Shown here piece by piece: positions 48,087-64,000 of a stretch of DNA of 64,000 nt. The notes beneath the pieces were generated by a model that saw nothing but the letters and a program-made list of their open reading frames with translations, was not told where the DNA came from and made no database searches. The position numbers and the translations under genes are program-made. How positions within the stretch are numbered: position 1 is the first letter of the stretch; the number at the start of each line of letters is the position of its first letter. The DNA comes from Foetidibacter luteolus. Lineage in GTDB: Bacteria > Bacteroidota > Bacteroidia > Chitinophagales > Chitinophagaceae. The DNA lies in assembly GCF_009650435.1 (NCBI RefSeq), contig NZ_VVIP01000058.1, positions 124,001 to 188,000 on the forward strand, read 5' to 3'.

Positions 48087-48449
48087 TTATTTTACATGTT
48101 GGCCAACAATCTTCGCAAGTTCAAACATACTCACCTGGTCTTTACCGAAAACAGCTTTCAGTTTGTCGTCGGCGTTAATCATACGCTTGTTAGCAGTATC
48201 CTGCAGCTTGTTTTTCTTAATGTAGTCCCATATTTTTTTAATGATCTCAGTTCTTGGAAGAGGCTTGTTGCCCACAACTTTGGCCAATGCATCGCTGGGG
48301 GTTAGTGGCGCCATAAATGCGGCGTTTACTTTTTTAGCGGCTTTTTTCGGCGCTGCTTTTTTCGGCGCAGCAGAAGCTTTTTTAGGTGCTGCCTTTTTCG
48401 CGGCAGGCGCGGCCTTTTTAGGAGCCGCCTTTTTTACAGTTTTTGCCAT
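48087..48449 (-). CDS. SWIB/MDM2-domain protein with histone-H1-like Lys/Ala tail
   Basis: 120 residues from the ATG at 48449; the frame runs six codons further, but this start is the natural one. Residues 1 to about 45 are a Lys/Ala/Pro repeat (KKAAPKKAAPAAKKAAPKK), like histone-H1 or AlgP-type DNA-compacting tails. The rest is a SWIB domain: PLTPSDALAKVVGNKPLPRT, EIIKKIWDYIKKNKLQD and DDKLKAVFGK. In bacteria SWIB proteins are known in Chlamydiae and some Bacteroidota and are thought to act on DNA. It probably binds and condenses the nucleoid. A strong terminator follows it; the tail comes from short repeated codon units. Confidence 0.9.
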   Translation of the reverse strand: MAKTVKKAAPKKAAPAAKKAAPKKASAAPKKAAPKKAAKKVNAAFMAPLTPSDALAKVVGNKPLPRTEIIKKIWDYIKKNKLQDTANKRMINADDKLKAVFGKDQVSMFELAKIVGQHVK

Positions 48450-48775
48450 GGTATTTAATTTAACCATCTAAATTATAATAGTATAATTCACTCTCTGTTA
48501 TTGTTTATGCACATAGTGTGAATCAGTTAATTTGCACGTTTACCGGCAGTAAAGGGTATTTAACATTCCCTACTGATTACCCTGCCGGAAAGCCGGTTAA
48601 TTAGTTGTATATTTGCCGCCGCAAAACAGGCTTCTTATTTACAGTTCCCTTCCCTATTAGGTTACAACAACCATTTAAAATATCAGTTAAACCCCGCCAA
48701 GCCTTAATTACAGTTTAGCCTGCATGCGGGCAACGTTTTTGAATAACAGATTAATTTTTTCACGAAAGAATACAT
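48450..48775. other. Divergent promoter region between SWIB and cold-shock-like genes
   Basis: The 326-bp gap contains a TATATTTG match at 48608-48615 on the plus strand, 160 bp before the next ATG, which would give an unusually long 5' leader. No repeat of the main families was seen. Confidence 0.5.
48608..48615 (+). promoter_or_regulatory. Candidate -7 element for the cold-shock-like small gene
   Basis: TATATTTG matches TAnnTTTG exactly; the start codon is at 48776, so the transcript would have a leader of about 150 nt. No TTG was found at the usual spacing. Confidence 0.35.
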
Positions 48776-50094: not shown

Positions 50095-50266
50095 TACCTT
50101 CCCTGTTGCATGTTTCCGCGCAATAACATCTTGCATTTTAAACTTTCCCGGTTAATGAGAGTTCAGCTCCTCTTATAAATTTCACCGTAATGTAACCTGT
50201 TTAGCCCGATAATACCGGTTTGGTTACCTGCAGTTGACTTACCTTGGTACGCTCAAAACAGGCATC

Positions 50267-50989
50267 ATGAAAAACACAAGACTTATTCTACCGTTACTGG
50301 CAACGCTTTGTGGTACGGCTATGGCGCAAACCCCAAACACATTAACCAAAAAAGAAAAAAAGGAAGGCTGGCAATTGCTGTTTGACGGAAAAACCACCAA
50401 CGGCTGGCATACCTACTTGCGTGACACCGTTGGCGCCAAATGGCAGGTAAAGGATGGCGCCCTGGTATTTGACCCAACCCAGCCAAAAGAAGGGGGCGGC
50501 GACCTGGTAACCAACAGCGAATACGAAAATTTTGAACTGCACCTTGAATGGAAAATATCCAAAGGCGGCAACAGTGGGATAATCTTTGACATACAGGAAG
50601 CCCCTGAAAACAGGGCCACTTATTTAACAGGCCCGGAAATGCAGGTATTGGATAATATTGATGCCGATGACAACAAAAAGCAGAACCACCTGGCCGGCTG
50701 TTTGTATGATATGCACGGCGATACCAGCGTATCTAAACCTAACCCTGTTGGCGAATGGAACCAGGTAAAAATAATCCAGGATAAAGGCCACCTTACTTTT
50801 TGGCTTAACGGCATTAAAACATTTGAAGGGCAAATAGGCAGCGAAGAATGGAACAACATGGTAGCCAACAGCAAATTTAAAAACCCGGTATTTGCCAATT
50901 TTGCCAAAGTTGCCAAAGGCAAAATAGCACTGCAGGAGCACCCGGGATCAAGCCAATGGAGGAATATTAAAATAAGGCCGTTATCTTAA
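50267..50989 (+). CDS. DUF1080 / 3-keto-disaccharide hydrolase-like secreted protein
   Basis: 240 residues from the ATG at 50267; the frame opens at 50234, but this start puts the signal peptide (ending GTAMAQ) first. The rest is one DUF1080 domain: GWQLLFDGKTTNGWHTYL, WQVKDGALVFDP, LHLEWKISKGGNSGIIFDIQ and TGPEMQVLDNIDADD. Members of this family hydrolyse 3-keto-glycosides or bind related sugars in the periplasm. The next gene on the same strand is a membrane regulator, which might sense the product. A terminator follows the gene. Confidence 0.9.
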   Translation: MKNTRLILPLLATLCGTAMAQTPNTLTKKEKKEGWQLLFDGKTTNGWHTYLRDTVGAKWQVKDGALVFDPTQPKEGGGDLVTNSEYENFELHLEWKISKGGNSGIIFDIQEAPENRATYLTGPEMQVLDNIDADDNKKQNHLAGCLYDMHGDTSVSKPNPVGEWNQVKIIQDKGHLTFWLNGIKTFEGQIGSEEWNNMVANSKFKNPVFANFAKVAKGKIALQEHPGSSQWRNIKIRPLS

Positions 50990-51051: not shown

Positions 51052-51126
51052 GTTGGCATCATAGTTATACGGGGTTCACAATAAAACGGAATTCCCTAAT
51101 TTGTGGCCGTTATTGTAAGACTGACT

Positions 51127-53682
51127 ATGGGGAAACGCATCTTGCCTGTTTTATGCATGTTATTATTGTTCTGTACAGCTATGGGCCAGTCTCATGGCCT
51201 GCAGTTTTTAAGCCATGAAGTGGTGCAGGAGAAAAGAACTTCGCTGAATTTAACGCCATCGGAACCATTTTGCATCAAAGAGAACACAGAGATTTCGTTC
51301 GACATAAGCTTTTCGCCCGATATGGAAACCTATTTTGGTTACGTGGTACGCATAGTAACAAAGGACAACCAGAATATTGACATTGTTTACAACCAGCGCC
51401 TGCTGAACTTTAATTTTGTTATAGGAGAAAATTTTTCGGTGGTTTTTACTGTGGAGCAGGCCCGCCTTTATGGGCAATGGAATAATTTTAAAATACAATT
51501 TGCAGGCCCGGCCAAAGACCCCTGCTTTTACCTTAACAACAAACTGATAGCAAGAGGCAAGCTTAAACCCGGCAGTAATGCCTGCAGCAGGATTTGTTTT
51601 GGCGCCAGCGACCTTGCCGGCTTTCAAACCGTTGACATACCGCCCATGCGTATTAAAGACATACGCATTAACGATGCTGGTAAACCGGTTTACTTTTATC
51701 CTTTGTCAGAAAGCACCGGCCTGCAGGCTACCGACGATATCCGCAACCAGGCAGCCATTGTAAAAAACCCGGTTTGGATAAAACCCCGCCACCAAAACTG
51801 GCAAGCGGTTAACAATTTTGCCACCAGGGGCTCTGCCAGCATTGCTTTTAACGCACGTACCGAAACGCTGTACGTTATAACAGAAGACACTTTATACAAA
51901 CTGGCCGTTAAAAACATGCAACTCGCCAGTACGCCGCTATCCGCCCGGCATGATAGCCTGTTGCCGGGCAACCAGAGTTTATACAGCACATTTACCAATA
52001 AGCTGTATAATTTTTACATAGACCAACAAAAAGTAAGCATATACGACACAACCAACCGGCGGTGGACCCAAAACTTTACCCCTGCCCTGCTTACTGAGTT
52101 CTGGCATGCCAACAAGTTTTTTTCAACGTTAGACACCAGCTTGTACATTTTTGGCGGTTATGGGCAGTTGCATTATAAAAACCAGTTGCAGCGTTATGCT
52201 GTTAACACCGGCAAATGGGAAACTGTTATAACCAGTGGCGGCGAAGTATCCCCCAGGTACCTTGCAGCCGTAGGTCTTAACGCACAAGGCGATACAGCCT
52301 ATATACTGGGCGGTTATGGCAGCAAAACCGGCGACCAAACGATAAATCCCCGTTACAATTACGAACTGGCCGCTTACGATATTAAGCGCAAAACCTACAG
52401 CCATATTTTACAATTACAGGAGCCGGCACTGCAGTTTTGCTTTGCCAACAGCCTTATTATTGATTCCGCTACCCGCAACTATTATGCGCTTACTTACCCC
52501 ATTGACAGGTTTAACTCATCCCTGCAGTTGATAAAGGGCTCGCTACATTCGCCGGTTTACGAAATAATGGCAGACAGCATACCCTACCCCTACCATGATA
52601 TAGAGTCTTATGCGGACCTGTTTTATTGCCCGGTTAGTAAAAAACTGGTAGCGGTAACCCTGTTTTCAGCCAGGCACAGCAGTACAGAGGTAAAAGTGTA
52701 CACCCTTGATTTTCCACCGAATATACCCGAAACAGCGAAACAGGCTACCAACGGGATGCCCGGCTACTGGCCTTATGCGTTGGCGGCTTTACTGGTTGTA
52801 TCTGCGGGGGCATCCTATTATTACATGAGGCGTAAAAAAGCCATTGTCGCCCAGGCCCCTCGGCAGGTGGCAACTGCATACGTACCGCCTGCTGAAAGTA
52901 TTGCCACTGCCCCCGCCCAGCAAACGCCAGTGTATGCTGCCGGTGAGAAAAAGCAGGAAGCCCTGCTGCAATTGTTTGGCGGCTTTGAGGCTTTTGACAA
53001 AAGCGGCACTAATATTACCAAGCAGTTTACCCCTTTGCTTAAAGAGCTGTTTCTGCTGATACTGGTGTACAGCTACCGCGAAGCCAGGGGCATAACGGCT
53101 GAAAAACTGTACGAAATACTCTGGCACGATAAACCACTGAAAGATGCTAAAAACAATTTTTCAGTAAATGTGGTGAAGCTGAAAACCATACTGGAAAAAG
53201 TAGGTGAATGCCATATAGGAAAAGAATCCGGCAAATGGAAATTCGAGGTTACAAATGATTCAATTTATACTGACTACCAGGAATATATGTCACTTATCGG
53301 CAATATAAGTGCAACAGATAAGGCTGCAATAATGCGGCTTGCTGATATTGTTGGTAAAGGAGCATTTTTAACTGAATTGCACTATAACTGGCTTGACGAT
53401 ATTAAGGCGGATATTTCCAGCCAGGTGATTGATAAGCTGCTCGGTTATATTGTTACTGCAGACACCGCCGCCGAAGCAGAGTTTATCATCAGGCTTTGCA
53501 ATTGCATTTTCCTGTTCGACCAGTTGAATGAAGACGCCCTGAAGTATAAATGCCGCAGCCTTGTAACACTGGGCCGCCATGGCATGGCCAAAGAGGCATG
53601 GCTGAAATTCTCCAAAGAGTACCGCGAAAATTATGGAGAAGAGGTAACCACCAGCTTTAAAGAAATTACCGGGGTAGAGTAA
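51127..53682 (+). CDS. Membrane-tethered regulator: lectin-like and Kelch sensor, one TM, SARP-like winged helix
   Basis: 851 residues from the ATG at 51127 (a GTG at 51103 is the alternative). A signal peptide (ending AMGQ) is followed by a concanavalin-like domain (about 20-200), then a Kelch-type propeller with YIFGGYGQLHYKNQLQRYAV and YILGGYGSKTGD. One hydrophobic segment, WPYALAALLVVSAGASYYYM near residue 550, is followed by RRKK. The cytosolic part has an OmpR/SARP-type winged helix (about 615-715: RGITAEKLYEILWHD, FSVNVVKLKTILEK) and a bacterial-transcriptional-activator-like helical domain to the end. It would bind DNA directly in response to an extracytoplasmic ligand without a phosphorelay. 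Its target is unknown; the DUF1080 gene is just upstream. Confidence 0.82.
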   Translation: MGKRILPVLCMLLLFCTAMGQSHGLQFLSHEVVQEKRTSLNLTPSEPFCIKENTEISFDISFSPDMETYFGYVVRIVTKDNQNIDIVYNQRLLNFNFVIGENFSVVFTVEQARLYGQWNNFKIQFAGPAKDPCFYLNNKLIARGKLKPGSNACSRICFGASDLAGFQTVDIPPMRIKDIRINDAGKPVYFYPLSESTGLQATDDIRNQAAIVKNPVWIKPRHQNWQAVNNFATRGSASIAFNARTETLYVITEDTLYKLAVKNMQLASTPLSARHDSLLPGNQSLYSTFTNKLYNFYIDQQKVSIYDTTNRRWTQNFTPALLTEFWHANKFFSTLDTSLYIFGGYGQLHYKNQLQRYAVNTGKWETVITSGGEVSPRYLAAVGLNAQGDTAYILGGYGSKTGDQTINPRYNYELAAYDIKRKTYSHILQLQEPALQFCFANSLIIDSATRNYYALTYPIDRFNSSLQLIKGSLHSPVYEIMADSIPYPYHDIESYADLFYCPVSKKLVAVTLFSARHSSTEVKVYTLDFPPNIPETAKQATNGMPGYWPYALAALLVVSAGASYYYMRRKKAIVAQAPRQVATAYVPPAESIATAPAQQTPVYAAGEKKQEALLQLFGGFEAFDKSGTNITKQFTPLLKELFLLILVYSYREARGITAEKLYEILWHDKPLKDAKNNFSVNVVKLKTILEKVGECHIGKESGKWKFEVTNDSIYTDYQEYMSLIGNISATDKAAIMRLADIVGKGAFLTELHYNWLDDIKADISSQVIDKLLGYIVTADTAAEAEFIIRLCNCIFLFDQLNEDALKYKCRSLVTLGRHGMAKEAWLKFSKEYRENYGEEVTTSFKEITGVE

Positions 53683-53899: not shown

Positions 53900-54334
53900 T
53901 TATTCTTTGGGCACCATTACAGCACGAACATGATTGATCTCATCTAAAAATTTCATTTGCTTATCAGTAAGTGACTCAATCGTTGCATCATTAGAGAATT
54001 GGTAATCGTACGTAATTAGATGGGTAGAATCGTTGTTAAAATACCACCAGCCATTTCTCAATCCGCCATTTGGAAGAACTTCATTAAAGGTCCCATCTTT
54101 ATTAAACTTCACTTCTTCAAGCGACCAGTCTTCTGCATTATTATCGCTGCCTTTAATATAAATAGTTGACTGTTTAGGCAACCCCCAGTAACGGTAAATA
54201 GTGTCATACACCCATGTTGGGCCGGTAAGCAGCTCAGTTTTGCCTTTCGGTTTTTGGGGTATATCGTAACATTTTCTACATGAATAAAAGGACAATACAG
54301 TTAGGGCACATACCAATAAGAGATTCTTGTTCAT
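53900..54334 (-). CDS. Small lipoprotein, lipocalin-like, unknown role
   Basis: 144 residues with a lipobox (LTVLSFYSC, then RKCYDI). The mature part has alternating strands typical of the lipocalin-like domains common in Bacteroidota (LTGPTWVYDTIYRYWG, EVKFNKDGTFNEVLPNGG, WWYFNNDSTHLITYDYQF). These domains are structural or ligand-binding; nothing more specific is visible. It is convergent with the membrane regulator and has its own terminator. A TAnnTTTG-type match (TAGGTTTG on the minus strand, 54429-54436) is 95 bp before the ATG. Confidence 0.8.
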   Translation of the reverse strand: MNKNLLLVCALTVLSFYSCRKCYDIPQKPKGKTELLTGPTWVYDTIYRYWGLPKQSTIYIKGSDNNAEDWSLEEVKFNKDGTFNEVLPNGGLRNGWWYFNNDSTHLITYDYQFSNDATIESLTDKQMKFLDEINHVRAVMVPKE

Positions 54335-54647
54335 TTTTTAAGTTTTAGTTTTATTGTGAAAGCGGTAGGTAATTTTTATGCAGAAAAAGGGTATAAATCG
54401 GTTTAAAGTTTGCGAGTTAGTTAAAGCGCAAACCTATAAATAATAAGTGAAGCCATAAAATTTTTATTTACTAAGAAAATTGCCATTCCCTTAATCCCTG
54501 CATAAAACTGTTGCTATTTCACCTATTTCCTCCCTAATTTCCTGCAAATCAGAAAATTAATTTCCCAATTAATGGGTTTATTAGCCGGTTTATTAATACC
54601 GCACGGGTTTCTTGCAGTCATATTCAATCAACCGAAACGATTGCCGT
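54335..54647. other. Divergent gap between the small lipoprotein and GH92 genes
   Basis: A 313-bp A/T-rich region with the TAGGTTTG match for the lipoprotein gene at 54429-54436. No repeat of the main families and no clear promoter for GH92 was seen. Confidence 0.45.
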
Positions 54648-56999
54648 ATGATGCGAATACTGACTCTTTTGTTCACTTTTTTCTGTTGCAGCCTGCAAAG
54701 TTTTGGCTGGCAGGCCGCTCACAAAGATGGCCACAGCAACCCGGCTTCAGCCCAGCCAAAAACCAAAAAATCAAATTCTGCCGCCGGCAATCAAAATATT
54801 CATATACCCCCCAATGCTTCAACTTCTAATCCGTCAAGCAGCGTTGAGACCTATGTTGACCCAACAATTGGAAATATCGGGCAGTTGCTGGAGCCTACCC
54901 GGCCAACCGTGCAACTGCCTAACCAGTTGGTAAGGTTTACACCACAGCGCAAGGATTACCTGGATGACGAAATCTCCAGCTTTCCCCTTACAATCGTATC
55001 GCACCGCATAGGGCAGGTCTTTTCTATTAAGCCCACCATAAAGCCACTCACACTTCAAAGCTGGAATGAACGTATGCCCTACGATCACCAACTGGAAATA
55101 AACCGCCCATGGTCTTATTCCACTTACCTGGTTGAGGATGAGATAACGGTTGAATTCACGCCGGGTAAGAAGGCCGGCATTTTTACATTTAAATTTCCGG
55201 TATCTAACTCAAGAAACTTATTATTAAATACTTATAACGGGGATGAACACAACTGGCAGTTTCCTTCCCCGGGTGAAATTACCGGCCTGGAAACCTTTCA
55301 TGGTGACATTAAAGTGTTCATGTATGGCCGCTTTAGCGAGACATTCTCTGTTTCCGTTGCTGACAAAACCGGCATCGCCAACTTACAGGGAAACAATACA
55401 GCCAACCCCAGAGCGGCCCTATCTTTCCCGCCTTCGGTAAAAGAGCTGGAGTTTCGTTATGCTATCAGCTATATCAGCCCGGAGCAGGCCAAAAAGAATT
55501 TCGATGAGGAGCTTTCCGGCAAAAGCTTCCAGGCTTTGGCAGATGCTGGCAAAAAAGCCTGGGATGCTGTTCTTGGCCAGGTGCAGGTTGAAGGCGGTAC
55601 GGATGCACAGCGCCGTAGTTTTTATACATCCCTGTACAGGTGCTATGAGCGAATGGTTAATATTTCCGAAGATGGCGCCTACTACAGCGGTTTCAATAAA
55701 CAAATCAACAAAGACACCCGCCCCTTTTACGTGGATGACTGGAGTTGGGACACGTACCTTGCCCACCATCCTTTGCGCATGATTTTGAATCCACAACAGG
55801 AGGAAGATATGCTGCAATCCTACATAAAAATGTACGAGCAAAGCGGATGGCTGCCCACTTTCCCGGTGCTTTATGGCGACCATGCCTGCATGAATGGCTT
55901 TCACTCTTCCATTGTTTTCCTGGATGCTTACCGCAAGGGCCTGAAAAATTTTGACATCAGCAAAGCTTATGAAGCCATACGCAAAAACGCTACCGATGCC
56001 ACGATGATACCCTGGCAAAATGGCCCCAAGACCACGCTGGATGATTTTTACCACGAAAAAGGCTGGTTTCCGGCATTGCATGAAAACGAAAAGGAGACTA
56101 TTCCGCAGGTACATCATTTTGAAAGAAGGCAGGCGGTGGCGGTAACATTGGGCCACAGTTACGACGACTGGGCGTTGGGCCAGTTTGCCAAAGAGCTTGG
56201 TAAAGCCGGTGACGCAGATTTGTTTGGCAAAAGGGCTTACAACTATAAAAATTTATGGCATGCAGACAAGCAATTGTTTATGCCCAAAGACGATAAAGGC
56301 AACTGGATTAATATAGACCCCAGGTTTGACGGTGGCCCCGGTGGTCGCGACTACTACGATGAAAACAACGGCTATACTTATGCCTGGCAGGTACAGCAGG
56401 ATATTCCCGGCCTGATATATCTTGTAGGTGGCAAAGCTGCTTTTGAACAAAAGCTCGACCAGCTTTTTCGTGAGGGCTTAGGCCGCAGCAAGCACGATTT
56501 CTGGTACAAGTTTCCTGATGCTACAGGCCTGGTAGGCCAATACTCTATGGGTAACGAGCCCAGTTTCCATATTCCCTATCTCTACAATTTCACGAATGCG
56601 CCGTGGAAAACACAAAAAAGAATTCGCTTCCTGCTGGATGTGTGGTTTAAAGATAATGTTCATGGCATTCCCGGCGATGAGGATGGCGGTGGCATGACTG
56701 CTTTTGTGGTGTTTTCTTCCATGGGTTTTTATCCCGTAACGCCCGGCCTGCCGCTATATACCATCGGAAGCCCTGTATTCAGCAAAGTGAGCATTGCATT
56801 AACCAACGGAAAGACATTTACCATTAAAGCCAACAACTGCTCCGTGGTAAATAAATATATACAAAGCGCTACAATAAACGGCAAAACCCTCAACACACCC
56901 TGGTTTACGCACAACCAGTTGGCGGATGGCGGTACGCTGGAGCTGGAAATGGGGCCAAAGCCAAACAAAAGCTGGGGAACCGCAACAGCCGCTTTGTAG
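54648..56999 (+). CDS. GH92 alpha-mannosidase
   Basis: 783 residues from the first ATG of an MMRIL start (the frame extends upstream to a TTG at 54612, which is less likely). A signal peptide ends near SFGW. The N-terminal beta-sandwich begins YVDPTIGNIGQLLEPTRPTV; the (alpha/alpha)6 barrel has DDWSWDTYLAHHPLRMIL, HFERRQAVAVTLGHSYDDWA, GNEPSFHIPYLYNFTNAPWK and the catalytic-type region GIPGDEDGGGMTAFVVFSSM. GH92 enzymes are calcium-dependent exo-acting alpha-mannosidases, inverting, common in Bacteroidota that attack N-glycans or yeast mannan. It precedes susC 3 on the same strand by 405 bp. Confidence 0.93.
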   Translation: MMRILTLLFTFFCCSLQSFGWQAAHKDGHSNPASAQPKTKKSNSAAGNQNIHIPPNASTSNPSSSVETYVDPTIGNIGQLLEPTRPTVQLPNQLVRFTPQRKDYLDDEISSFPLTIVSHRIGQVFSIKPTIKPLTLQSWNERMPYDHQLEINRPWSYSTYLVEDEITVEFTPGKKAGIFTFKFPVSNSRNLLLNTYNGDEHNWQFPSPGEITGLETFHGDIKVFMYGRFSETFSVSVADKTGIANLQGNNTANPRAALSFPPSVKELEFRYAISYISPEQAKKNFDEELSGKSFQALADAGKKAWDAVLGQVQVEGGTDAQRRSFYTSLYRCYERMVNISEDGAYYSGFNKQINKDTRPFYVDDWSWDTYLAHHPLRMILNPQQEEDMLQSYIKMYEQSGWLPTFPVLYGDHACMNGFHSSIVFLDAYRKGLKNFDISKAYEAIRKNATDATMIPWQNGPKTTLDDFYHEKGWFPALHENEKETIPQVHHFERRQAVAVTLGHSYDDWALGQFAKELGKAGDADLFGKRAYNYKNLWHADKQLFMPKDDKGNWINIDPRFDGGPGGRDYYDENNGYTYAWQVQQDIPGLIYLVGGKAAFEQKLDQLFREGLGRSKHDFWYKFPDATGLVGQYSMGNEPSFHIPYLYNFTNAPWKTQKRIRFLLDVWFKDNVHGIPGDEDGGGMTAFVVFSSMGFYPVTPGLPLYTIGSPVFSKVSIALTNGKTFTIKANNCSVVNKYIQSATINGKTLNTPWFTHNQLADGGTLELEMGPKPNKSWGTATAAL

Positions 57000-57404
57000 T
57001 CTTTGCTGCTTACGCTAAGTAACCTGATTATTCACCCAAAACTGCTGCCATGCTACATGCCATATTTTTTCCGCCGTAAGATTCATGTCCAGAAAAGGAT
57101 AAATGCAGAGACGGATTGATGCCATAAGTACTACAGATGAATCCCGAGGTTTCGGGACGACGCAACGATGATGCCATAAAAAACTATCGCTGGTATCCAC
57201 ATTGTTTAAAGAATTGACCTGCCAATGTTTCTATACAAATATTTTGGGACGGGCTGGATTGCTACTATGGGGCTTTACTTGTGTCACTCACTTGTACTGC
57301 AACAATTCTATTCACCGTGGTGCGGCACCTGTCTAAACCAGCCAGCCAGTTCTCTGCATACAAACTGCCATTACTCATTTGTCAACTAACACCGAATAAC
57401 TGAT
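57000..57404. repeat. Gap with TTGCGTCGCAA-type repeat copy i (hairpin-interrupted)
   Basis: Copy i spans 57111-57198 on the minus strand. Its core is GTTGCGTCG, but the following half is replaced by the hairpin TCCCGAAACCTCGGGA, then TTCATCTGTAGTAC. Outer parts GGATACCAGCGATAG and ATGGCATCATCG match other copies. The remaining bases up to susC 3 are A/T-rich with no clear TAnnTTTG match. Confidence 0.65.
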
Positions 57405-60400
57405 ATGAAAAAAATCTATTACCTCTTATTATGGGTGTTCCTGCTGCCGGTTTTTGCTTCTGCCCAACAGAAGACCATTACCGGTAAAGTAACCGACACC
57501 AAAGACGGTGCCCCTGTTTCCGGCGCTACTGTATATGCGCAGGACAACAGTGGCAAACAGGTGGCTATTACAGCTACTGACGCATTAGGCGCTTACAGCA
57601 TTACCGTTAACGGAAGCGCCACGCAGTTGGTATTCTCATTTATTGGTATGAAGGACATTACCGAAACAATAGGCAACCGCACTACCATCAACATTTCCCT
57701 GGCCGCGACAGACGAACAGTTGGGTAATGTGGTAGTAGTAGGTTACGGCGTTAAAAGAAAAGAAACGCTAACCGGCTCCGTTGCTAATATTACCAATAAA
57801 GAAATACAAACCAGCACCAACGTTAGCCTTGCACAAAAACTACAGGGCAAAGTAGCCGGCCTGCAAATACGCCAGTTAGGCGGCGAGCCGGGCACTTTCG
57901 ACAATATGATTAACATACGTGGTTTTGGAACACCGCTGTACGTTATTGATGGTATTGTACGTGACGGTTCTTCCGAATTTCAGCGGCTGAACCCGGAAGA
58001 CATTGAAAGCATTTCTTTTTTGAAAGATGCTTCTGCCGCTATCTACGGTTTTGGCTCTGCCAACGGTGTAGTAATTGTTACCACCCGTAAAGGCGCCAAA
58101 GGCAAGACGGCTTTTTCTTATAACGGCGTGGTGGGCATTGGTAAACCAACCGATGTACCCAGAATGGCTAATGCCAGCGAATGGATGCAGATGCGCAACG
58201 ATGCTGCTATTCTTTCCGGCGGGCAACCCTTTGTAACAAGGGAAGAGCTGGACAAATGGATGGCAGGCGGCCCCGGCTATCAAAGTACAGACTGGTATGA
58301 TGTTACCATGAAAGGACAGTCTATACAACAGCAGCACAACCTCTCAGCATCCGGCGGTAATGAAAAAACCCAATACTACATGGGCCTGGCTTACTTTGAC
58401 GAAGGTGGCCTGCTGCGCAGTAACGATATGGGCTACAAACGGTACAACCTGCGCTCTAACATTACTACCGAACTGGCTAAAAACCTGAAAGCGGAAATAC
58501 TCATCGGCGGCCGTTACGACAAAAAAAGCAGCCCCGGTGAAAACTTCTTCAACATCTTTAAAGGCACCCGTGTTACCCTGCCAACAGAACAACCATTTGC
58601 CAATGGCAACCCGTTGTACCCGGCAGTAGTAACACCGAGCAACCAAAACCCATTAACGCTTTCCCAACGCAGTATTACCGGCTACAGTGAAACAGTAAAC
58701 CGCAACCTGCAAACAAGCCTTGCATTAATGTATGATGTTCCTTTTGTAAAAGGACTGTCACTAAAGGGACTGGCCTCTTACGACATGAACAATTACCAGG
58801 GCAAGGATGTAGGCAAGCCTTATAAACTTTACACGTATGTGAATGACACGTATATAGAGTCTCCACAGCGTGTAGGTACCGGCGGTATAGGGGAAGGTTT
58901 TAGCAATAGCAACAGGGTTACTTTACAGGCGCAGGCTTTTTATAACCGCACCATTGCCAGCCTGCACAACATTAGCGTAATGGGAACTTTTGAGCAGCGC
59001 CAGGAGTGGGACCGCTATGCCAACCTTAGCAGGCTGTACGACTTCTACACACTTGACCAGATTGACCGGGCCAGCGCCAATCCCAATGGCGTAAAAAACT
59101 CCGGTAATGAAGGCCGCTCTGCTTCACAGGCTGTTTTGGGCCGCTTTAATTACGATTTTGACAAAAAATACCTGTTGGAGTTCGCCTTCCGTTACATGGG
59201 CACTTACGCATTTCCGCCGGAAAGCCGGTGGGGATTTTTCCCGATTGTAAGTGGCGGCTGGAGAATCTCAGAAGAAAAGTTCATTAAAAATCACCTGCCT
59301 GTTGTTTCTAATTTAAAGCTGCGTGCATCTTATGGTAAAGTGGGCGCCAGCGATGGCATAGGCGCTTACCAATGGATACCCGGTTTTGCGCTGGCAGGTG
59401 GCGGCTTATACGAGTTTGACAACGGCGTTATTACCAATGGCGCACTGGCTCCGGGCCTGGTTAACCCCACACTTACCTGGAAAACCGCTAAAACAACAGA
59501 TATTGGCATTGATATCGGCTTATGGAACAACAAGCTCACCTTAGAATTTGATGTTTACCGCAGGGATATGGAAGGCATACCGGCCCGCAAAAATGTGTCG
59601 CTGCCCAACACTTTTGGCACAACACTGCCGGAAGAAAACCTGAACAGCCAACGCACACAGGGATTTGAGTTTACCGTATCACACAACAACCGCATCGGTG
59701 AATTTTCATACAATGTATCCGCCAACTTCAACTATGCCCGCACCATGAACCTGTATGTAGAAAGGGGGCCCTTCCTCAGCAGCTACGACAGGTGGAGAAG
59801 CGGCGAAAACAACCGTTATAACGATATCGTTTGGGGTTATACCTACCTGGGCCAGTTTCAAAACATGGATGAGATTGCCAACTGGCCATTGCAAAACGGC
59901 GACCAGGCAAATATTCGTGAACTGCCCGGCGATTTTAAATATGCCGACGTAAACAATGACGGGGTAATTGACGGCAGGGATGAGCTTCCACTGTTCACCG
60001 GCGCTTTTGGTAACAATGGCGACCTGAATGCAGGCGGCAGAAAAAACCCACGCATCAACTACGGTTTTACGTTGAATGGCTCCTGGAGAGGTTTTGATAT
60101 AAACCTGCTCTTCCAGGGTTCTGCCATGTACACTGTAAGGTTTAGTGAAGTATATGCTGAAATGCTGGCCTTCCGCGGTAATACACCTGCCTACTTCTTT
60201 GACCGTTGGCACAAGGCCGACCCTTACGATCCTAAAAGTGAATGGATACCCGGCAAATGGCCTGCTACCAGGTTTAACGGTGATGTGGGCGCCATGTACA
60301 GGGAAAGCTCTGTATGGCGTAAAGATGCTTCTTACCTGCGCCTGAAGAGCCTGGAGTTAGGTTATACACTTAACCCCAAATGGTACAGGGCTGCAGGCAT

Positions 60401-60560
60401 ACAAAAGCTGCGTATATATGCCAGCGGCTTTAACCTGCTAACTTTTGCTGATGAGTTTGTAAAGCCATTTGATCCTGAAAGATTGGAAGGCCTTTTTAAC
60501 GCAGGCTTTAATTACCCACTGATGAAGACTTACAATTTCGGCATGAACCTCACTTTCTAA
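57405..60560 (+). CDS. SusC/RagA-family TonB-dependent outer-membrane transporter 3
   Basis: 1051 residues. A signal peptide (ending ASAQ) is followed by a carboxypeptidase-regulatory-like domain (about 22-105), the plug start LGNVVVVGYGVKRKETLTGS, a plug with MINIRGFGTPLYVIDGIV, and a barrel ending PLMKTYNFGMNLTF. It imports oligosaccharides with TonB. Its partner susD 3 follows after 12 bp. With GH92 upstream and a GH99/71-like gene downstream, mannan-type oligosaccharides are the likely cargo. Confidence 0.96.
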   Translation: MKKIYYLLLWVFLLPVFASAQQKTITGKVTDTKDGAPVSGATVYAQDNSGKQVAITATDALGAYSITVNGSATQLVFSFIGMKDITETIGNRTTINISLAATDEQLGNVVVVGYGVKRKETLTGSVANITNKEIQTSTNVSLAQKLQGKVAGLQIRQLGGEPGTFDNMINIRGFGTPLYVIDGIVRDGSSEFQRLNPEDIESISFLKDASAAIYGFGSANGVVIVTTRKGAKGKTAFSYNGVVGIGKPTDVPRMANASEWMQMRNDAAILSGGQPFVTREELDKWMAGGPGYQSTDWYDVTMKGQSIQQQHNLSASGGNEKTQYYMGLAYFDEGGLLRSNDMGYKRYNLRSNITTELAKNLKAEILIGGRYDKKSSPGENFFNIFKGTRVTLPTEQPFANGNPLYPAVVTPSNQNPLTLSQRSITGYSETVNRNLQTSLALMYDVPFVKGLSLKGLASYDMNNYQGKDVGKPYKLYTYVNDTYIESPQRVGTGGIGEGFSNSNRVTLQAQAFYNRTIASLHNISVMGTFEQRQEWDRYANLSRLYDFYTLDQIDRASANPNGVKNSGNEGRSASQAVLGRFNYDFDKKYLLEFAFRYMGTYAFPPESRWGFFPIVSGGWRISEEKFIKNHLPVVSNLKLRASYGKVGASDGIGAYQWIPGFALAGGGLYEFDNGVITNGALAPGLVNPTLTWKTAKTTDIGIDIGLWNNKLTLEFDVYRRDMEGIPARKNVSLPNTFGTTLPEENLNSQRTQGFEFTVSHNNRIGEFSYNVSANFNYARTMNLYVERGPFLSSYDRWRSGENNRYNDIVWGYTYLGQFQNMDEIANWPLQNGDQANIRELPGDFKYADVNNDGVIDGRDELPLFTGAFGNNGDLNAGGRKNPRINYGFTLNGSWRGFDINLLFQGSAMYTVRFSEVYAEMLAFRGNTPAYFFDRWHKADPYDPKSEWIPGKWPATRFNGDVGAMYRESSVWRKDASYLRLKSLELGYTLNPKWYRAAGIQKLRIYASGFNLLTFADEFVKPFDPERLEGLFNAGFNYPLMKTYNFGMNLTF

Positions 60561-60572
60561 AAAGTTCTATTT

Positions 60573-62474
60573 ATGAAATGGAAAAAAGCAAGAATCTATA
60601 TATTTTCTGTCGCCCTGTTTACTGCGTCATGTGCCAAAGTGCTTGACCTGGAACCTACAGACAGAATTACCGCCGATGTGATCTTTGGCGACCCACAGGG
60701 CGTGAAGCTTTACATGGCCGACCTTTATTCGCAGCTACCTATTGAAGACTTTGCCTATTTCAGGCAGGGCTTTAACTGGAACGGCAGCCCCGGTACCGGC
60801 GATGTGAACAATGGCGGGTTTGCGCCGGCCATGTCAACCGACGAAGCCGTACATAGCGAGTTCGGCGACTTTGTTGGCAACGATGATTTTCAGTGGTGGG
60901 ATAAAGGTTATAAACTGATACGCGATGTAAACCTGTTGATTGATGTAATACCTACCCTAAACATCAAGGATGATGAAAGGGCGGCACTTACCGGTGAAAG
61001 CGCTTTTATTAAAGCTTACGCGTATTTTGCTTTGGCTAAACGATACGGTGGCGTTCCCCTCATTAAAGAATCGCAGAAATACGATGGTACGGCAGAAAGC
61101 CTTAAAGTGCCGCGTAGCACGGAAAAACAAACCTGGGATTATGTAATGGAACTTTGCGATGCCGCCATCGCCAACCTTGCTCCAGGTAAAGGCAGGCGTG
61201 CAAGCAAATGGACCGCCTATGCGTTGAAATCAAGGGCCGCACTGCATGCAGCTTCCCTGGCAAAGTTTGGCCCCCGTGCCCCCATGTCAGGCGATGCTGT
61301 TTCGCAAAACCTGATTGGCCTCAATACATCCGATGCAGCCGGTTACTACAGCGCCTGCATTGCTGCATGCGAAGCCATCATTAATTCCGGGGAATTCCGC
61401 CTGTTCAGGCCCAGTCCTGCCAATGCGAATGAAGCAGCGGAAAATTACAGGTTGCTTTTCCAGGATCCTAACGGAGCAACAGATGAAGCTATTTTCATCA
61501 AAGGATTTACCATCCCCGGCAATGGTACCGGCCAGAACTACGATATCTGGTACCAGCCCGCACAGGTTGCCAATGGCTGGCCACACCCCGGACGTATGAA
61601 CCCCACACTAGACCTGGTGGACTTATACGAGAGCTATGATAACCCCGGGCAGAGCGCACCTATTGTTACCACGACAGATGGCAACGTGAACGATTACAAT
61701 GGTTACAGTACCGCCAAAACTTACCTGCGGTTTGATACACCCAATGACATCTTTAAAAATAAAGATGCCCGCCTCTGGGGCACTGCCATACTGCCGCAAA
61801 CAAACTGGAAAGGCATACCCATTATTATACAGGCGGGTTATGTAAAACCAGACGGCCAGGCAGTAATACGTGTGAAGGATGAAATTACCATAAACGGCAC
61901 TACTTACTATACTTACGGAGCGCCCAGCACTACCATGTATTCTGGTTTTGATACCTATGGAGGCAACAATACCCGCACTGGTTTTTCTTTTAAAAAATTC
62001 ATGAACCAGAATGCGCCGGTGGTGCCAGGCTGGAACCAGGGCACAACAGATTTCATTGAATTTCGCTATGCTGAAATTCTTTTAAACTACGCCGAAGCTG
62101 TTGTAGAAAGCGGTACCGGTAATGCAGCGGCAGCAGCGGCGGGGCTAAATGATATACGCAAGCGTGCAGGACATACCAGTACCGTGGCGCTTACGTCAGA
62201 TAATGTTCAAAGGGAAAGAAGAGTGGAGCTGGCTTTTGAAAACAAACGTTTCTGGGACCTCATCCGCCGCAGGGAGTTTCACACCCAGTTCAACAACCGG
62301 TTTATGCACTCCATTCTGCCCTTACAGGACCTGAGGGCATTGCCTGATAAGAAATACATTTTTGTGCGGGTGAATGTACCCAACACCAATCCCAAAACAT
62401 TTGAAACAAGGGCTTATTACCGTTACATACCGGGCATAGGTTCTAATGGCCTGGTGCAAAATCCACAGTATTAA
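60573..62474 (+). CDS. SusD/RagB-family outer-membrane lipoprotein 3
   Basis: 633 residues with a lipobox (SVALFTASC, then AKVLDLEPTDRI). Family segments include GESAFIKAYAYFALAKRYGG and VPLIKESQKYDG in the first half and RRVELAFENKRFWDLIRRRE in the second, ending in VQNPQY. At 633 residues it is longer than the two other SusD proteins here, mainly through insertions in the C-terminal SusD half. It is the surface glycan-binding partner of susC 3. A stem-loop separates it from the DUF3823 gene. Confidence 0.95.
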   Translation: MKWKKARIYIFSVALFTASCAKVLDLEPTDRITADVIFGDPQGVKLYMADLYSQLPIEDFAYFRQGFNWNGSPGTGDVNNGGFAPAMSTDEAVHSEFGDFVGNDDFQWWDKGYKLIRDVNLLIDVIPTLNIKDDERAALTGESAFIKAYAYFALAKRYGGVPLIKESQKYDGTAESLKVPRSTEKQTWDYVMELCDAAIANLAPGKGRRASKWTAYALKSRAALHAASLAKFGPRAPMSGDAVSQNLIGLNTSDAAGYYSACIAACEAIINSGEFRLFRPSPANANEAAENYRLLFQDPNGATDEAIFIKGFTIPGNGTGQNYDIWYQPAQVANGWPHPGRMNPTLDLVDLYESYDNPGQSAPIVTTTDGNVNDYNGYSTAKTYLRFDTPNDIFKNKDARLWGTAILPQTNWKGIPIIIQAGYVKPDGQAVIRVKDEITINGTTYYTYGAPSTTMYSGFDTYGGNNTRTGFSFKKFMNQNAPVVPGWNQGTTDFIEFRYAEILLNYAEAVVESGTGNAAAAAAGLNDIRKRAGHTSTVALTSDNVQRERRVELAFENKRFWDLIRRREFHTQFNNRFMHSILPLQDLRALPDKKYIFVRVNVPNTNPKTFETRAYYRYIPGIGSNGLVQNPQY

Positions 62475-62539: not shown

Positions 62540-63217
62540 ATGAACAAGATAATTTCAATTTTATTCATCGGCCTTCTGGCATTCACATCTTGTAAAAAAG
62601 ATAATTACGACGCCCCCAATGCCGGGCTTTCCGGCCGTTTTGTTGATGCCGAAACCGGTGAACTGGTGCAGCAGGACATCATCCGAGGCACACAAATAGA
62701 AATATTTGAGCATGGCTATGGTACCGGCCAACTGCAGTACCTTATTGTAAAAAATGATGGCACGTACGAGAACAGCCTGTTATTCGCCAACACATACACT
62801 ATCAAGCCGGTAAGGGGCAATTTTATCGCCGTTGAACCCCAGGATATTAATATCCAGGGCAAAACCACGCTCGACTTTACGGTAACGCCTTATATACGAC
62901 TGAAGGATGTAAGCATCAACAAGAATGGCAACAAGGTAGTAGCCAGCTTTAAGCTGGAACAAAAGGTTATTAATAACATCAAGAAAATTGGTTTGTATGC
63001 GCATTCCGATTCAAGGGTTGGCGAACCCATGCGGCTGGTGGCTGCGGAACAGGAGCTGAACGCGGTGTCTGATCCTAACCATACTTATACGTTAGAAATT
63101 GACCTGGATGCCAACAGCAGTGTATTGAAAGCCGGCACCTCCTATTACTTCAGGGCGGGTGCTTTAATAGATATTGGCGACGCCAAATTGAATTACGCAC
63201 CGGCGGTAAAGCTATAA
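62540..63217 (+). CDS. DUF3823 outer-membrane lipoprotein (SusE-like position)
   Basis: 225 residues with a lipobox (GLLAFTSC, then KKDNYDAPN). The N-terminal half looks like a carboxypeptidase-regulatory-like sandwich (LSGRFVDAETGELVQQDIIR), the C-terminal half a second beta-sandwich (PYIRLKDVSINKNGNKVVAS). This two-domain arrangement is the DUF3823 family, which in Bacteroidota follows susD genes and is thought to be a surface glycan-binding protein. It sits directly after susD 3 and before the GH99/71-like gene. Confidence 0.88.
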   Translation: MNKIISILFIGLLAFTSCKKDNYDAPNAGLSGRFVDAETGELVQQDIIRGTQIEIFEHGYGTGQLQYLIVKNDGTYENSLLFANTYTIKPVRGNFIAVEPQDINIQGKTTLDFTVTPYIRLKDVSINKNGNKVVASFKLEQKVINNIKKIGLYAHSDSRVGEPMRLVAAEQELNAVSDPNHTYTLEIDLDANSSVLKAGTSYYFRAGALIDIGDAKLNYAPAVKL

Positions 63218-63507: not shown

Positions 63508-64000
63508 ATGAAAAAACTCACCACAGTTTTATTAATGCCGCTGTTGCTGGCTATAACCTGTTGTTCTAAGAAAACGCAGAGTGGTGGCGATAATAACCCG
63601 CCCCCCAATCCACCGCAAGAGGTGGAAGAAGCAGTGTATGATGAAACGGGCTGTTTATATACATCGTACAGGAACCTGGTAATGGCTGGGTACCAGGGCT
63701 GGTTTGCGGCTGAAGGAGATGAATCAAACCGCGGCTGGTACCATTTTCAAAACGGCAGTTGCGGTGGGTTTAAGCCAGGCTGCAGCGCTGTTGACTTCTG
63801 GCCCGACATGACCGAATACACAAAGAAATATCCATCGCCATTTTCATTTGCAAACGGCAGCAATGCGCCATTGTACAGCCCGTACGATGAAGAAAGTGTT
63901 GACCTGCATTTTAAATGGATGAAAGATTATGGTATTGATGGTGTGTTTATGCAACGCTTTGTGGTAGAAATAAAAGAGTCTAACCCAAGTGGCAAAAGGC
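63508..64000 (+). CDS. GH99/GH71-like lipoprotein, N-terminal part (cut by window end)
   Basis: 164 codons are visible before the window ends. A lipobox (LLLAITCC, then SKKTQSGG) marks an outer-membrane lipoprotein. After a Pro-rich linker comes RNLVMAGYQGWFAAEGD, then SAVDFWPDMTEYTKKYPSPF, YSPYDEESVDLHFKWMKDYG and IDGVFMQRFV. These fit the GH99/GH71-like TIM-barrel family, which includes endo-alpha-mannosidases and endo-mannanases. Next to GH92 and susCD 3 it supports an alpha-mannan or N-glycan locus. The catalytic residues lie beyond the window. Confidence 0.82.
   Translation, partial: MKKLTTVLLMPLLLAITCCSKKTQSGGDNNPPPNPPQEVEEAVYDETGCLYTSYRNLVMAGYQGWFAAEGDESNRGWYHFQNGSCGGFKPGCSAVDFWPDMTEYTKKYPSPFSFANGSNAPLYSPYDEESVDLHFKWMKDYGIDGVFMQRFVVEIKESNPSGKR

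Follow-up and report, generated by a model that had tools for sequence, protein, structure and literature searches.

In this study, we describe a gene of Foetidibacter luteolus that probably encodes a one-component transmembrane activator of the SARP type, which would control an alpha-mannan-type PUL by acting on arrays of TTA(A/G) repeats. The gene lies in the window, by which we mean the whole 64,000-nucleotide stretch of DNA that was analysed. The features of the gene and its product are as follows:

51127..53682, + strand: regulator gene, 851 aa, from ATG 51127 to the stop ending at 53682
51127..51186, + strand: putative signal peptide, residues 1-20 (MGKRILPVLCMLLLFCTAMG), from sequence and hydropathy; Q21 is conserved in the alignment
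51187..51726, + strand: N-terminal all-beta region, possibly a ConA/LamG-like lectin, residues ~21-200, from a moderate-confidence model
51769..52716, + strand: extracytoplasmic Kelch-type beta-propeller, residues ~215-530, from Pfam, the model and Foldseek
52768..52824, + strand: predicted single transmembrane segment, residues ~548-566, followed by MRRKK on the cytosolic side, from hydropathy and alignment
52960..53271, + strand: winged-helix DNA-binding domain, residues ~612-715, from the model and Foldseek
53137..53202, + strand: putative recognition helix, residues ~671-692 (..KDAKNNFSVNVVKLKTILEKV), the most conserved cytosolic stretch
53272..53670, + strand: BTAD-like helical repeat (bacterial transcriptional activation domain), residues ~716-848, from the model and Foldseek

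The domain order is signal peptide, beta-sandwich, Kelch propeller, transmembrane segment, linker, winged helix and BTAD. The open reading frame at 51127-53682 reported in the first-pass annotation proved to be real, its longest possible start being a GTG at 51103, and the gene is single-copy in its own 7.28 Mb genome. Of 150 genomes sampled from the same family, 17 (in 15 of 103 genera) contained full-length or near full-length homologues, a count that includes the weak partial match of one genome, G072. A scan of public genome contigs gave 22 loci, mostly Chitinophagaceae by title, and a profile of the cytosolic part matched 8 of 297 genomes across the phylum, in several families, the matches being sparse outside Chitinophagaceae. 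Conservation over dozens of genomes excludes a chance origin. The search for homologues that the annotation had proposed recovered related proteins in genomes of the family and, sparsely, elsewhere in the phylum.

Locus L029 (contig CAJCIQ010000238.1) is titled Beijerinckiaceae (Alphaproteobacteria) and carries a Bacteroidota-type regulator and PUL; the title looks wrong, and the match position is identical to that in contig C238 of G147, a genome of the window's own family. At L064:7902-10459 the regulator is split into two open reading frames, with the break between the Kelch part and the transmembrane/winged-helix part, which may be a real split or a sequencing error. At L067:8325-12819 two regulator paralogues are arranged in tandem and overlap, one of them with only partial similarity in the Kelch part.

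Analysis of the extracytoplasmic part identified Kelch-type Pfam matches at residues ~289-431 of the window protein (best 3.1e-12) and in all 17 members of the extracytoplasmic alignment. For residues 21-540 the model was all-beta with a mean pLDDT of 77, and its Foldseek list consisted mostly of Kelch structures and included sialidases that combine a lectin domain with a propeller. In this model the first ~180 residues probably form a separate sandwich, the N-terminal all-beta region being modelled at moderate confidence only. Laminin_G_3 matched one of the 17 aligned members (E 0.005). Of the lectin/Kelch sensor proposed in the first-pass annotation, the Kelch portion therefore stands, while the lectin identity of the N-terminal region is tentative; this region may bind a ligand.

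The segment at residues ~548-566 of the window protein is of moderate hydrophobicity (Kyte-Doolittle 1.18). A hydrophobic segment (1.2-3.2) followed by a net charge of +2 to +7 was present at this position in 38/38 aligned homologues, and on these features the protein is predicted to have a single-span topology with a positive-inside flank. The alignment thus gave no sign that the hydrophobic stretch does not span the membrane, the outcome that had been named as refuting, and together with the predicted fold it bears out the one-component, single-span architecture that had been read from the open reading frame.

The AlphaFold model of the cytosolic part had a pLDDT of 90. Its six best PDB matches in Foldseek were all EmbR and AfsR, matched over the full length of the model with a probability of 1.00 and E values of 4.5e-6 to 1.9e-5, and the next match (E 0.16) followed after a gap of about four orders of magnitude. 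Sequence identity to EmbR and AfsR was 12-16%. A single-sequence Pfam scan of the window protein gave no significant match in the cytosolic part; among 32 members, PF00486 (Trans_reg_C) matched weakly in four (best E 0.04) and PF03704 (BTAD) weakly in three (best E 0.0022), and the distant relatives at L068 and L069 showed a clear BTAD match. A search of PDB sequences with the cytosolic profile also returned weak matches only (SaeR, E 0.72), so that the fold comparison was needed for this part. The full-length fold matches and the gap in E value indicate that the call of a SARP-like DNA-binding end was right, the predicted structure showing a winged helix followed by a BTAD, which is the SARP arrangement. 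Few stretches of the chain are as conserved as the recognition-helix region, NN[RF]SVN..KLK. Between the span and the winged helix lies a poorly conserved linker of ~45 residues. A search of the genome itself gave no paralogue of the cytosolic domain. Related output domains occur at L069:9040-10218, in a response regulator of the order receiver, winged helix and BTAD, and at L068:10503-12662, in a BTAD protein with C-terminal TPRs.

The genes and sites around the regulator are listed below:

50264..50989, + strand: DUF1080 (PF06439) gene, judged an incidental neighbour
53900-54334, opposite strand: small gene of unknown function between the regulator and GH92 genes
54557..54597, + strand: candidate operator, four direct repeats TTAAT / TTAAT / TTAGC / TTAAT
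54608..54615, + strand: -7-like element TTTCTTGC, 15 nt after the start of the last repeat, a spacing that is the same in relatives
54648..56999, + strand: GH92 gene, the conserved downstream partner, with ATG 54648 as its likely start
57405..60560, + strand: SusC gene, with no STN domain match
60573..62474, + strand: SusD gene
62540..63217, + strand: DUF3823 lipoprotein gene of the PUL
63508..64000, + strand: first of two GH99-like genes, running past the end of the window
L077:4945-6207: second GH99-like gene, wholly beyond the window

Because the -7-like element lies at 54608, the GH92 gene is likely to start at ATG 54648 and not at TTG 54612. The two GH99-like genes were assigned from a sub-threshold Pfam match for one of them, and we take their sequences to resemble GH71/GH99-type enzymes. 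The order regulator, GH92, SusC and SusD recurs in L060, L061 and L041, GH92 identity being 66-72%, and GH92, GH99-like and SusC genes recur around many other regulator loci. Of 23 regulators, 14 had a GH92 gene at most 12 kb away, where random placement would give 0.73 (P 2.6e-16, with related genomes taken as independent), and the regulator's own genome has only four GH92 genes. Several members of the regulator family adjoin PULs that have no GH92 gene. GH92 enzymes are exo-alpha-mannosidases and GH99 enzymes act on alpha-mannan as endo-enzymes, which points to a substrate of the alpha-mannan type. These conserved neighbours make an alpha-mannan-type PUL the probable target of the regulator and uphold the PUL link suggested earlier. 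No other regulator gene was seen in the PUL of the window, and, as its SusC has no STN domain match, signalling of the ECF-sigma type through SusC is not indicated.

At six loci (L032, L042, L044, L074, L079 and L087), the first gene that follows the regulator with its array encodes a protein of ~375-690 aa with an N-terminal membrane segment of the form LLPFLxLxLLExxLRxxxYGxN. At 48087-48467, the window encodes a 126-aa protein with a lysine/alanine-rich N-terminus and a C-terminal sequence that is presumably SWIB-like.

When the intergenic regions upstream of GH92 were read side by side, four TTAAT/TTAG units at a 12-bp pitch appeared in the window and in L027, L028, L060 and L061. The repeats of the window start at 54557, 54569, 54581 and 54593, a pitch of exactly 12, and cover the -33 region of the putative GH92 promoter. 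Over the loci the arrays consist of three to four direct repeats of TTA(A/G) at a pitch of 11-12 bp, mostly 12 or mixed 11/12, and it is 15 nt from the start of the last repeat to a following box that reads roughly TTn(A/C)TT. The -7 element of Bacteroidota is TAnnTTTG, and by sequence this box resembles it.

Perfect triple repeats over all loci numbered 50 at pitch 12 and 0-9 at other pitches, except for 37 at pitch 7, which we take to be a heptamer repeat. Most pitch-12 triples precede SusC, GH92 or GH99-like genes, and many of the others are the same sites mirrored on the other strand. Such triples were found before 21 of 59 PUL genes and 1 of 219 other genes at the regulator loci (the latter in L071, where it is the first gene after the regulator), and before none of the 40 other SusC/GH92 genes of the window's own genome (37 SusC and three GH92). 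Arrays of pitch 11-12 before a gene were present at 38 of 47 loci, while other pitches gave 1-5 and the control set one in 40; the loci had been chosen for holding a regulator, and related loci are not independent. No recognised array was seen at L066, L067 and L088-L091, of which L089 ends at a contig edge.

A composite pattern of the repeats and the -7 box gave 34 matches, all intergenic. A control with 12 nt in place of 15 nt scored 19, which may be explained by the next repeat itself fitting the loose -7 pattern. With the strict scan (pitch 12 with the -7 box), the PUL adjoining the regulator was matched in no genomes other than that of the window and those of its two closest relatives, so that a pitch of 11-12 was needed. 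In a composite scan of the same 150 genomes that were sampled for homologues, matches occurred in 12 of 17 regulator-bearing genomes and in 17 of 133 others (Fisher P 1e-6; 5e-6 when the weak G072 match is moved). Two of the scan hits are remote from any regulator and directly precede GH99-like genes, in G065 (L162, 53% identity to that of the window) and G048 (L165, 73%); since GH99-like genes behind such remote sites played no part in the design of the pattern, they support a shared regulon. In the window's genome the composite pattern matched once, at the GH92 promoter, so the regulon there looks local. The fourfold repeat pattern alone was not enriched in this genome (16 matches versus 12 for the reversed pattern). 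No array precedes the SusC gene of the window, which lies 405 bp beyond GH92, so that this gene is only possibly co-regulated. Before this SusC gene an exact 11-nt direct repeat, TGATGCCATAA, is present at 57117-57127 and 57169-57179, 52 nt apart; it was dropped as an operator, as no array of it was found in relatives and, within the window, the number of one-mismatch matches is close to chance.

Regulators that are very distantly related (25-28% identity) and have no PUL beside them, at L063 and L064, are likewise followed by arrays. These regulators adjoin a prolyl-tRNA-synthetase-like gene, and after both of them a TTAACCC array, a similar GC-rich hairpin and an open reading frame for a ~45-aa zinc ribbon were observed (L063:11729-12050 and L064:10459-10780); no Rfam match was obtained in L063. 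At L062:8900-10150 an array precedes an apparent ECF sigma-factor gene with a SusC gene further downstream, a possible two-tier circuit.

Typical SARPs are cytosolic proteins with an N-terminal winged helix, whereas the regulator carries this domain at its C-terminal end, after a large extracytoplasmic sensor and a membrane span. With the SARP/EmbR-AfsR proteins of Actinomycetota it shares the two-domain fold over its full length and direct repeats of about one helical turn that overlap the upstream promoter box. The sites bound by SARPs are direct repeats of classical 11-bp units that in most cases overlap the -35 element, and the monomers are thought to lie on one face of the DNA (PMC10972967, PMC5930380). 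The predicted site of the regulator likewise has direct repeats of ~11 bp (11-12) overlapping the -35/-33 region, but its pitch of 11-12 bp is not the classical 11 and its half-site is TTA(A/G).

Among PUL regulators, SusR-like proteins are also single-chain membrane proteins with a periplasmic sensor, a cytosolic DNA-binding domain and an adjacent PUL (PMC3878776). In SusR, the motifs are two boxes at a distance of 67 or 77 bp, and the DNA-binding domain is described as unlike known ones (PMC3878776). By description only, the regulator differs in its Kelch sensor, its SARP-type output and its tandem repeats, three to four boxes at 11-12 bp in place of the two SusR boxes. The HTCSs used by the alpha-mannan PULs of B. 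thetaiotaomicron, such as HTCS_Man, are membrane-anchored as well, and in the HTCS_Man motifs two 16-bp sites flank a 5-bp spacer (PMC3878776); no HisKA, HATPase, receiver or AraC match was found in the regulator, its significant matches being Kelch-type. Like the ToxR/CadC-type TTRs (as defined in PMC10269533), it appears to be a one-component protein with one span and a winged helix acting from the membrane, the predicted span and DNA-binding domain lying on one chain; unlike ToxR, it has the opposite order, with the sensor N-terminal and the output C-terminal, and an added BTAD. In Bacteroidota, transmembrane regulators are frequent, and the TTR survey relied on Pfam DNA-binding models (PMC10269533), so the regulator, which has no Pfam DNA-binding match, would be expected to escape a survey of that kind.

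Given that the array logic is the same as that of SARPs, we propose that the regulator, while in the membrane, binds side by side and activates transcription directly. The periplasmic beta-sandwich and Kelch propeller would sense a glycan fragment or a protein partner, and the signal would pass through the one membrane helix predicted from sequence and conservation. The cytosolic winged helix and BTAD would then bind side by side on the three to four TTA(A/G) repeats, 11-12 bp apart. Bound there, over the -33 region and at a fixed distance from the -7-like box, the regulator would recruit RNA polymerase, and transcription of GH92, or in relatives of SusC/SusD or GH99-like genes, would follow.

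The array might instead be the site of another factor, or a general promoter feature of GH92/GH99-type PULs, with which the Kelch-SARP protein merely co-travels. In favour of this reading, the loci that gave the arrays had been picked because they hold the regulator, and the composite match also occurs in the 17 genomes with no detected regulator. We consider it unlikely, as the three other GH92 and 37 SusC upstream regions of the genome have no perfect arrays, composite sites number 1.24 per genome with the regulator and 0.14 without (the reversed pattern giving a background of similar order), and arrays lie beside the distant regulators of L063 and L064 and before other genes such as the apparent sigma-factor gene of L062. 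It is less likely still that the C-terminal SARP fold no longer binds DNA and works through protein contacts. The lack of a DNA-binding Pfam match above cut-off in single-sequence scans would agree with such a loss, but the recognition-helix region is strongly conserved, and helix groups and repeats differ together when compared by eye, TTAGG occurring with KDAQNN and TTAACCC with KTKNIRG.

The regulator could also be a membrane-tethered precursor from which proteolysis, after ligand sensing, frees the winged helix and BTAD into the cytosol. The poorly conserved linker between span and winged helix would agree with this, but no cleavage motif was identified in the regulator and no protease gene was noticed among the labelled conserved neighbours, and we regard release by proteolysis as rather unlikely. 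The first-pass annotation had named the DUF1080 gene as a candidate ligand source, in which case the sensor would respond to the product of this 3-keto-disaccharide hydrolase and regulate its gene. The DUF1080 gene directly precedes the regulator gene on the same strand, some 110-140 nt away, so co-transcription with the regulator is possible in the window's genome. This partnership was nevertheless rejected as highly improbable: DUF1080 adjoins the regulator only in the window, DUF1080-like genes occur just twice among 46 other loci (2.2 and 6.1 kb off, 29-34% identity), and no array or other candidate operator was found before the DUF1080 gene.

PUL regulation is known mainly from gut Bacteroides, the named classes being SusR-like, HTCS and ECF-sigma (PMC3878776). 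One-component membrane PUL regulators of the SusR-like kind and transmembrane regulators were already known, and what is new here is the candidate operator. In the open-access literature searched, no paper was found that joins Kelch with BTAD, or Kelch, Chitinophaga, regulator and glycoside hydrolase, nor was the combination of Kelch sensor, single span, SARP-type output and tandem-repeat operator found. Taken across the phylum, it is reasonably likely that Kelch-sensing transmembrane SARPs form a further class of membrane-anchored PUL regulators, which act on tandem arrays of 11-12 bp repeats and in which recognition helix and half-site co-vary. If so, this class, invisible to Pfam, would come with a readable operator from which regulons and substrates could be predicted in environmental Bacteroidota, and it would provide a testable case of three to four membrane-tethered monomers lining up on one promoter.
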